Source: Opitutia bacterium (GTDB taxonomy: Bacteria; Verrucomicrobiota; Verrucomicrobiia; Opitutales; UBA953). From it: a stretch of 64,000 bases of DNA. This document shows positions 14,073 to 16,624 of the stretch, piece by piece (position 1 is the stretch's first letter; each line of letters starts with the position of its first letter). The stretch covers positions 124,001 through 188,000 of the forward strand of contig BGOM01000011.1 of NCBI GenBank assembly GCA_003569245.1. Direction: 5' to 3'. The translations under genes and the position numbers were made by a program. A model generated the notes under the pieces. That model saw only the letters and a program-made list of their open reading frames with translations. It did not search any database and was not told the origin of the DNA.

Positions 14073-15128
14073 ATGGCCGTCGTCCAAGCCGTCACCATCG
14101 ACCTCGCGGGCACCCTGCTGTTCCCCCACCCTTCGGTCGGGTCGGTCTACGCCGCCTGCGCCCGCCGCCACGGCGTGGAAGTCTCCGCCGCCGAACTGGA
14201 CGCCGCCTTCCCGCTGGGGTTCAAGGGGGCGCCCCGTCAGGCCAAGCCCGAGGCTTTCTGGCGCGAGGTGGTGATGCGTTCCTTCGGCCCCGCCCTGCCC
14301 GCCTCGAAATTCGAGGCCGTCTTCCGCGACTGTTGGGAAGCCTTCGGTCGCGGGGCGGCCTGGCGCGTGGCGCCCGCGGCGGTCACGGCGCTGACGGCGA
14401 TCCGCTTCCTCGGCGTCAAGGTCGCCGCGCTCTCCAACGCCGACGCCCGCATGCGTACCGTGCTCGCGGACAAAGGGCTGACCCACCTGTTCGACGGGGT
14501 TTTCCTTTCCGACGAGACCGGTGCCGCCAAACCGGACCCCAAGGCCTACGCCCACGCGGCCCGTCAGCTGGGCGTGGCCCTCTCCGCCCTGGTGCACGTG
14601 GGCGACGACCCCAAGGAGGACGGCGAAGGGGCCCGCGACGCCGGCGCCATCGGCGTGATCGTGGGCGGCGCCTACGCGCCGGAGAAATGCCTGCGGGCCG
14701 AGCACTTGCGCGACCTGCCCTTCGTGCTGCGGGCGCTGCTCACCGAGGGCAAGGCCAAGGGCAAATTCTCCCGGCATGTGGTGAACCTCCTGGCCAACCT
14801 GCGCGGCCTGCCCGAGGACCGGGGCCGTTCGACCGATCGCGACCTGCGTTCGATCGACGACGCCGTGACCGAGGCCTTCCGGAAACTCCGCCTCGACAAA
14901 CCGGTGCCGGAGGACGCGATCTTCGCGCATTGGCACGAGTTGCTCCCCGCGAAGCTGGCGAAACGTTGCGCCCCCCTGCGGGTGCTCGAAGGCGGCAAGC
15001 TCGTCGTGCAGTGCGAGAACACCGTCATCAAGTCCGAGGTGCGCTTCCACGAACGGGCGTTGCTCGCGAAGATCCGCGCCCTGCGCGGCTGCCAGGAGGT
15101 CCGGGCGATCTCCTTCGTCAACGCCTGA
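14073..15128 (+). CDS. HAD-like hydrolase fused to a DciA-like (DUF721) domain
   Basis: The 351-residue protein joins two domains not usually found together. Residues about 1-225 are a HAD-superfamily hydrolase of the REG-2/HDHD3 type: motif I is DLAGTL, motif II ALSNAD, motif III around GAAKPDPKAY, and motif IV HVGDDPKED. The second aspartate of motif I is absent, as in some relatives, so phosphatase activity is uncertain. Residues about 250-351 match DUF721/DciA: an amphipathic start (DDAVTEAFRKLRLD), FAHWHELLPAKLAKRC, GGKLVVQCENTV and a final EVRAISF. DciA is the replicative-helicase partner in most bacteria that lack DnaC. The ATG at 14073 is preceded by pyrimidine-rich sequence without a Shine-Dalgarno motif. 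The fusion frame is uninterrupted. Confidence 0.85.
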   Translation: MAVVQAVTIDLAGTLLFPHPSVGSVYAACARRHGVEVSAAELDAAFPLGFKGAPRQAKPEAFWREVVMRSFGPALPASKFEAVFRDCWEAFGRGAAWRVAPAAVTALTAIRFLGVKVAALSNADARMRTVLADKGLTHLFDGVFLSDETGAAKPDPKAYAHAARQLGVALSALVHVGDDPKEDGEGARDAGAIGVIVGGAYAPEKCLRAEHLRDLPFVLRALLTEGKAKGKFSRHVVNLLANLRGLPEDRGRSTDRDLRSIDDAVTEAFRKLRLDKPVPEDAIFAHWHELLPAKLAKRCAPLRVLEGGKLVVQCENTVIKSEVRFHERALLAKIRALRGCQEVRAISFVNA

Positions 15129-15134
15129 GGCCGG

Positions 15135-15533
15135 TCAGTCGGCCTTCGGGCGCGGCTCGTACGGGGCGAGGAACACTTCCTTGAAGTCGTAAACGTCGTC
15201 AAAATCCTCGAGCCGATCCTCGTCGGACCGCCCGAAGAGCCCGGTGTCGATGATGTTGAACACGATGTGGCCGACGTCGAGGGACTTACGCAGTCCCCAG
15301 CTCTGCAGGAGCGGGTAGGACATTGGCCCGTAGGTCTCGAGCACATGCCGGCGGAAGCCCTCGAGGAGCTGGGGGCCGGTGACATGTCGGTTGGCCCCGG
15401 CCTTGCCTTTCTTCGGCTCGCCGTGGATGTCCTTCTGGGCCTGATCGAGCCCCAGGCGCACCAGTTCGTAGGCCTGCGCCTTGTAACGGGGATCCTTGGC
15501 GCGGATCTGACGGATGACCTCGGCGAAATCCAT
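15135..15533 (-). CDS. Minf_1886 family protein (conserved in Planctomycetes/Verrucomicrobia)
   Basis: This 132-residue protein of unknown function shows the family's conserved pattern: DPRYKAQAYELV, RHVTGPQLLEGFRRHVLE, GPMSYPLLQSWGL, then DVGHIVFNIIDTGLFG and DDVYDFKEVF. The family is typical of Planctomycetes and Verrucomicrobia, which makes it a useful lineage marker. I use the ATG at 15533, two bases downstream of the hisC stop; an overlapping TTG at 15539 would add two residues. It is probably co-transcribed with hisC. Confidence 0.85.
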   Translation of the reverse strand: MDFAEVIRQIRAKDPRYKAQAYELVRLGLDQAQKDIHGEPKKGKAGANRHVTGPQLLEGFRRHVLETYGPMSYPLLQSWGLRKSLDVGHIVFNIIDTGLFGRSDEDRLEDFDDVYDFKEVFLAPYEPRPKAD

Positions 15534-15535
15534 GC

Positions 15536-16624
15536 TCAAAGCTTGGCGAGTTCGGCGAGCAAGCGCTCGTTCTGGGCGGCCGTGCCCACGGTGAGCCGGA
15601 GCCAGCCCTTCATCCCGTAGCCGGCCAAGGGACGGACGATGACGCCGGCGCGCTGAAGTTTGGTGAAGGCCTGCTCGGCCTCGGGGATGCGCGCGGCCAG
15701 GAAATTGGCGTGACCGTCGATGACCTCGCAGCCGAGACGCGCCAAACCTGCCTTCAGCTGGGTGATGCCGGCGGCGTTGACCTCGCGCGTGCGCCGCACG
15801 AACGCCTCGTCATCCAAGGCGGCCTCGGCGGCGGCGAGCGCCGGCAGGTTCACGTTGAAAGGCTGGCGGACGCGGTTGAGCAACGCGACGACCTCGGGGC
15901 TGCCCATCAGGTAGCCGACGCGCAAGCCGGCGAGGCCGTAGGCCTTCGAGAACGTGCGACTGACCACGACCTTGCGGCCGGACTGCATCAGGGGACGAAG
16001 GTCGGCGCTGGCATCGAGGTACTCGGCGTAGGCCTCGTCCAGGCAGAAGATGACATCCTCCGGCAGCGAGGCCGCGAGCGCGAGGATGTCCGCCGGGGCG
16101 TCCGTGCCGCCGGTCGGATTATTGGGCGAGGCGAGGAAGACGATCCGGGTCTTGGGCGTGACCGCGGCGCGCAGGGCCTTGAGGTCATGGCGATAGCCCG
16201 GCATCGGCACGGGCACCGGGGTGGCTCCGAAAAGCAGCGTGGCCAGCTTGTAGACGATGAACGCCTGTTCGCCGAACACGACCTCGTCGCCCGGGCGGAG
16301 GAAAGCCTGGGCCAGGAGGATCATCACCTCGTTCGAACCATTGCCGACGATGAAATGGGCGGGGGTCAGCGCCCACTTGGCGGCGAGCTTCTCGCGGAGA
16401 AAGGTACAGCCTCCGTCCGGGTAGAGGTGGCAGACCTCGAGGGCCTTGCGGGCCGCGGCGAGACCCAGCGGGGACGGACCCAGCGGGTTCTCGTTCGAAG
16501 CGAGCTTGATCACCGAGGAGGGATCCAGGCCGAACTCACGGGCGACAACTTCGATGGGCCGGCCGGCCTCGTAGGTCGGTTGGGTCAGCACCGGTCGGTT
16601 GGCTAGGTCTGAATAGGAAGCCAT
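15536..16624 (-). CDS. hisC: histidinol-phosphate aminotransferase
   Basis: HisC transfers an amino group from glutamate to imidazole acetol phosphate in histidine synthesis, using PLP. The 362-residue protein has the class I/II aminotransferase signatures: KLASNENPLGPSP at the start, FLASPNNPTGG, LDEAYAEY, and the PLP-lysine segment SRTFSKAYGLAGLRVGY. The ATG at 16624 is chosen over an upstream in-frame start because MASYSDLANRP leads directly into the conserved domain. It is divergent from the RmlD-like gene across 96 bases that hold an inverted repeat. Confidence 0.95.
   Translation of the reverse strand: MASYSDLANRPVLTQPTYEAGRPIEVVAREFGLDPSSVIKLASNENPLGPSPLGLAAARKALEVCHLYPDGGCTFLREKLAAKWALTPAHFIVGNGSNEVMILLAQAFLRPGDEVVFGEQAFIVYKLATLLFGATPVPVPMPGYRHDLKALRAAVTPKTRIVFLASPNNPTGGTDAPADILALAASLPEDVIFCLDEAYAEYLDASADLRPLMQSGRKVVVSRTFSKAYGLAGLRVGYLMGSPEVVALLNRVRQPFNVNLPALAAAEAALDDEAFVRRTREVNAAGITQLKAGLARLGCEVIDGHANFLAARIPEAEQAFTKLQRAGVIVRPLAGYGMKGWLRLTVGTAAQNERLLAELAKL

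Follow-up and report, generated by a model that had tools for sequence, protein, structure and literature searches.

In the window, the 64,000-nucleotide stretch of verrucomicrobial DNA analyzed here, the sole candidate for a DnaB helicase loader in the genome is a DciA protein that bears a REG-2-like haloacid dehalogenase (HAD) hydrolase on its N-terminus. Judging from the sequences of its relatives, this HAD-DciA fusion is a fixed trait of a whole family of Opitutales-like Verrucomicrobiota, in whose ancestor neighboring HAD and dciA genes became one frame. We consider it probable that the protein is a loader with a passenger hydrolase that came from two neighboring genes, and that the C-terminal part of the HAD core has turned into a structural module in one genus of the family, g144. 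Among the helicase loaders of bacteria, DciA is the ancestral one, and its mechanism is still debated.

The fused gene is a single uninterrupted frame of 351 amino acids at positions 14073–15128 (+) of the window, with the HAD first and DciA second, and its start methionine aligns with the starts of the other members of the genus. The HAD hydrolase domain, REG-2-like and of the C1-cap type, covers residues 5–191 (14085–14645, +; PF00702, TIGR02252, 3k1z), and the DciA (DUF721) domain covers residues 261–348 (14853–15116, +; PF05258, with an AF2 model matched by Foldseek to 7ykm and 8a3v). Ahead of the latter lies the basic N-terminal segment of the ancestral DciA, beginning with KFSRHVVNLLANLRGLPEDR (14763–14852, +), which matches the N-termini of separate DciA proteins such as MKFSRYVENLIANLRSLPENID in G014; residues 226–260 have a pI of 11.4. 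No internal start codons at conserved positions were found ahead of the DciA part among 11 fused genes, so that a separate DciA product is unlikely. An AF2 model of the whole fusion (four rows) reached a pLDDT of 51, too low to reveal contact between the two halves. The next gene downstream, at 15135–15539 (-), encodes a Minf_1886 family protein (TIGR04138). An earlier note, made from the letters of this DNA, had described the gene as a one-frame HAD-DciA fusion, and both its coordinates and its domains were borne out. The findings that it had named as refuting were looked for as well and did not turn up: the DUF721 profile matches the C-terminal part, a second dciA is missing from the genome, and the fusion runs through the whole family.

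The loader half matches the Pfam DciA family, PF05258, with an E-value of 6.5e-16 and 58.8 bits, where the cut-off is 24; this match and that of the HAD half both lie well above their Pfam cut-offs. An AF2 model of the C-terminal 127 residues (four rows) has a pLDDT of 69, with most core blocks at 79–87, which corresponds to moderate confidence. The top three PDB matches of this model in Foldseek are 7ykm (Deinococcus radiodurans DciA) and two chains of 8a3v (Vibrio cholerae DciA), all with a probability of 1.00, yet with E-values of just 3e-3 to 8e-3. A PDB sequence search with the DciA half alone gave no credible match. The model is consistent with the KH-like fold of DUF721. In the window genome, which is 91% complete, the fusion is the one DciA over the cut-off and there is one DnaB locus (PF00772, 5.1e-24), which aligns to DnaB structures. 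Neither DnaC nor DnaI was found in this genome, where the sole PF01695 match over the cut-off is DnaA. At this completeness a gene that was not found may still exist, but nearly all relatives likewise have one DciA match. The window protein resembles the DciA (PF05258/DUF721) loaders in being basic and single-copy, in its predicted KH-like fold and in occurring in a genome without DnaC or DnaI. Its loader half very likely works as DciA usually does. Unlike other DciA proteins, it has a HAD ahead of its N-terminal segment, and its gene does not adjoin dnaA, from which some 127 kb of the same contig separate it. The Opitutales DciA consensus W..ivG also reads W..llP in the fused proteins.

For the enzyme half, the PF00702 Hydrolase model of Pfam matches with 7.4e-22, and TIGR02252 DREG-2 ranks first among the NCBIfam models (1e-40), with a score of 139.7 bits that is slightly below the cut-off of 155.2. 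Because of this score, we call the window HAD REG-2-like and do not file it as a TIGR02252 member; a separate relative, the HAD of G129, passes the same cut-off with 157.9. Among solved structures, human HDHD3 (3k1z, 3.4e-19) comes closest, and no function of HDHD3/REG-2 was found in the literature searched. The window HAD shares its C1 cap and a motif I without the second aspartate with the REG-2-like HADs (TIGR02252; HDHD3), and differs from them in falling below the family cut-off and in being joined to DciA.

The residues typical of the HAD superfamily are all in place. According to HAD alignments, motif I, DLAGTL (14100–14117, +), keeps the nucleophile Asp10 with an alanine at +2 (29 HADs aligned), motif II is represented by Ser121 (14433–14435, +), motif III by Lys153 (14529–14531, +; invariant in A2), and motif IV by the acidic pair in GDDPKED, residues 177–183 (14601–14621, +). 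The protein does not have the two-aspartate DxDxT motif I of HAD phosphatases, and hence is not a standard two-Asp phosphatase. The earlier note had rightly seen that the second aspartate is missing (DLAGT) and took this as a hint of an inactive phosphatase. That interpretation does not hold, as the residue is absent in 29 of 29 fused and separate HADs aligned and in HDHD3 as well; a trait of the whole subfamily, missing from all the separate relatives too, gives no sign of inactivation. Among intact members, the nucleophile, the motif III lysine and the acidic residues of motif IV are invariant or nearly so, with serine or threonine in motif II. NG86 estimates of dN/dS, which are meaningful only for pairs with unsaturated dS, range in the closest pairs from 0.05 to 0.14 for the HAD half and from 0.05 to 0.16 for the DciA half. 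The HAD half of close relatives is thus under purifying selection, and the low ratios together with the conserved catalytic residues indicate that the HAD is maintained in the genus of the window.

We found DciA in 163 of the 177 genomes of the order. Its open frames are 358–437 amino acids long in the window's family, f1, and mostly 120–200 amino acids in other families; one f1 frame of 201 amino acids, in G166, is ended by a contig edge. The HAD and DciA profiles match one frame in 62 of the 79 family genomes, and a wider profile adds five further fused genomes. The exceptions that were checked are contig edges, where the two domains are split between contig ends (G166 and G339, for example), or diverged members of genus g144 that prove to be fused too when a g144 profile is used, and no stand-alone dciA was found among the 79 family genomes. 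Five genera have the fusion, and the flanking genes vary from genus to genus. One bin, G316, contains two different HAD-DciA fusion genes, on C10 and C29 (L205, L204), which may represent two mixed strains given its 3% contamination. Long frames resembling fusions were also seen in three genomes of other families (G056, G198 and G275) and were rejected, with DciA alone among their Pfam matches.

Outside the window's family, HAD and DciA occur independently of each other. This HAD is missing in 107 of the 177 genomes of the order, though nearly all possess DciA, and in many genomes it stands alone, far from dciA. Conversely, 10 near-complete genomes of family f35 (e.g. G189, G205, G227 and G232) have the HAD without detectable DciA (E <= 0.001), and their helicase loader may be strongly diverged. 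In another member of this family, G183, there is a DciA match below threshold only.

In other parts of the order, the two genes are found side by side. A separate HAD gene lies immediately upstream of dciA on the same strand in families f5, f8, f15, f18, f20 and f21 (107 loci surveyed for adjacency, with G078 placed from search coordinates), and in four genomes from three families (G004, G129, G105 and G118) the end of the HAD gene, with its stop codon, shares 4 bp with the start of dciA. The fused proteins retain the N-terminal segment of separate DciA (KFSRHVVNLLANLRGLPED in the window, compared with MKFSRYVENLIANLRSLPEN in G014), and the length from the end of the HAD to this segment is nearly equal across the four genera first aligned. 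The fused HADs form one clade in the HAD tree, with support of 100/99. The DciA tree is compatible with a single origin but does not demonstrate it; one clade was not rejected (p-AU 0.87) when the truncated G166 was counted as fused and the long-branched G146 was left out. The adjacency and overlap, the retained segment and the HAD clade are most simply explained if two coupled genes fused a single time, and the event apparently happened once. The adjacency that preceded it could reflect a functional link. Beyond the order, none of 40 loci had the HAD within about 3 kb of dciA, and a class-wide search by coordinates did not place it close to dciA. The founding DciA paper described no conserved dciA neighborhood in Verrucomicrobia (PMC5109545). 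In eight families of the order, dciA is followed about 1 kb downstream by a PNPase gene (L052 3921–6200, L046 2777–5020 and others), an old gene neighborhood that partly includes the separate HAD.

The fate of the enzyme differs within genus g144. Three of its genomes (G300, G301 and G303) have a largely intact fused HAD. In four others, G302, G299, G296 and G295 (L197, L194, L195 and L216), the fused HAD has no cap domain, motif II, motif III or first aspartate of motif IV; the nucleophile position is occupied by glycine, asparagine and asparagine in the first three, and G295 has no aspartate there. These four proteins form one group (83/96) in a tree of the shared part, and their genomes showed no intact copy of this HAD at any other place. 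The C-terminal 62 residues of the HAD core, which end just ahead of DciA, are 61–70% identical between the degenerate genomes, compared with 26–41% in the remaining HAD and 30–48% in the DciA core. The counterpart of this segment in the window spans approximately residues 166–222 (14568–14738, +). Since the best-conserved segment has no catalytic role, it suggests a structural or binding module built into the loader. Genus g144 is in this respect a natural enzyme-to-pseudoenzyme series.

In the reading that we favor, the DciA part, which has kept both its N-terminal segment and its KH-like domain, would load DnaB as other DciA proteins do, while the HAD tethered at the N-terminus would run its own hydrolase reaction, separate from loading, in the window genome. 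In the degenerate g144 proteins, the C-terminal part of the HAD core would now serve the loader as a structural module at its N-terminus, and this would explain why it is kept without an active site. Four g144 genomes have lost the catalytic residues of the HAD and kept the loader, which argues that HAD catalysis is not needed for loading; DciA without the HAD, the HAD without DciA in f35, and this active-site loss all indicate that the catalysis does not serve loading. Most likely the enzyme half has an activity of its own, which in one genus decayed and left a structural remnant.

Both ingredients of a structural module have precedents. The segment ahead of DUF721 in Caulobacter DciA binds ssDNA and aids loading (PMC12547741); a lineage-variable segment precedes DUF721 in the window protein as well, but here a folded enzyme domain stands ahead of it. 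The PcrP / PA2803 subfamily consists of HAD proteins without catalysis that act by partner binding (PMC12632274). PcrP parallels the degenerate g144 HADs, yet it belongs to another HAD subfamily and is not fused to DciA, and the window protein differs from it in having an intact active site. No paper that mentions DciA together with haloacid dehalogenase was found in the literature searched.

A related interpretation, which we hold only tentatively, is that the hydrolase was captured by the loader and is turning non-catalytic lineage by lineage, with the HAD core of g144 serving as an essential structural or partner-binding module. It is rather unlikely that the HAD was a non-catalytic scaffold from the outset and in every member of the family, one that binds DNA, DnaB or a different protein of the replisome and partly replaces the role of the ssDNA-binding N-terminal extension of Caulobacter DciA. 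The absent second aspartate and the core retained in g144 without catalytic residues would agree with such a scaffold, as would the known ssDNA binding and variability of DciA N-terminal extensions (PMC12547741) and the example of PcrP as a non-catalytic, partner-binding HAD protein (PMC12632274). However, the nucleophile, motif II, lysine and motif IV that PcrP has lost are retained in genera g1–g4 and in the intact g144 members, and the same HAD occurs in solitary form, distant from dciA, in many genomes.

The earlier note had also proposed nucleotide- or signal-dependent control of helicase loading. In the form considered here, HAD catalysis or substrate binding would regulate loading, and with it replication, in response to a metabolite or nucleotide. 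The adjacency of the HAD to dciA in six other families, with 4-bp overlaps in some, the later fixation of the fusion across the family, and the purifying selection on the HAD could be read in this way. Against it, the loader persists in the four g144 genomes that lost the active site, the HAD is absent from most DciA-bearing genomes of the order, and family f35 has the HAD without detectable DciA; we regard control of loading by HAD chemistry as unlikely, and as a less likely reading than an independent activity. Less probable still is a neutral fusion without structural integration, in which the HAD would remain solely because deleting it would harm an essential frame, and the g144 HAD would be melting away. 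The loss of the cap and active site in g144 and the independence of the two genes elsewhere would fit, but the C-terminal part of the HAD, at 61–70% identity, is the most conserved portion of the degenerate members. That two genes were joined by an assembly or frameshift artefact has no evidence in its favor and can be practically dismissed, because the fusion recurs in 62 genomes and five genera with flanking genes that differ between genera.

The fused single-copy loader is a purifiable natural system, and its relatives cover the steps from separate genes through overlapping genes and a fusion with an intact active site to a fusion with a lost one. This series lets one ask directly what DciA gains from an N-terminal domain, and by which route an enzyme turns structural in an essential protein.
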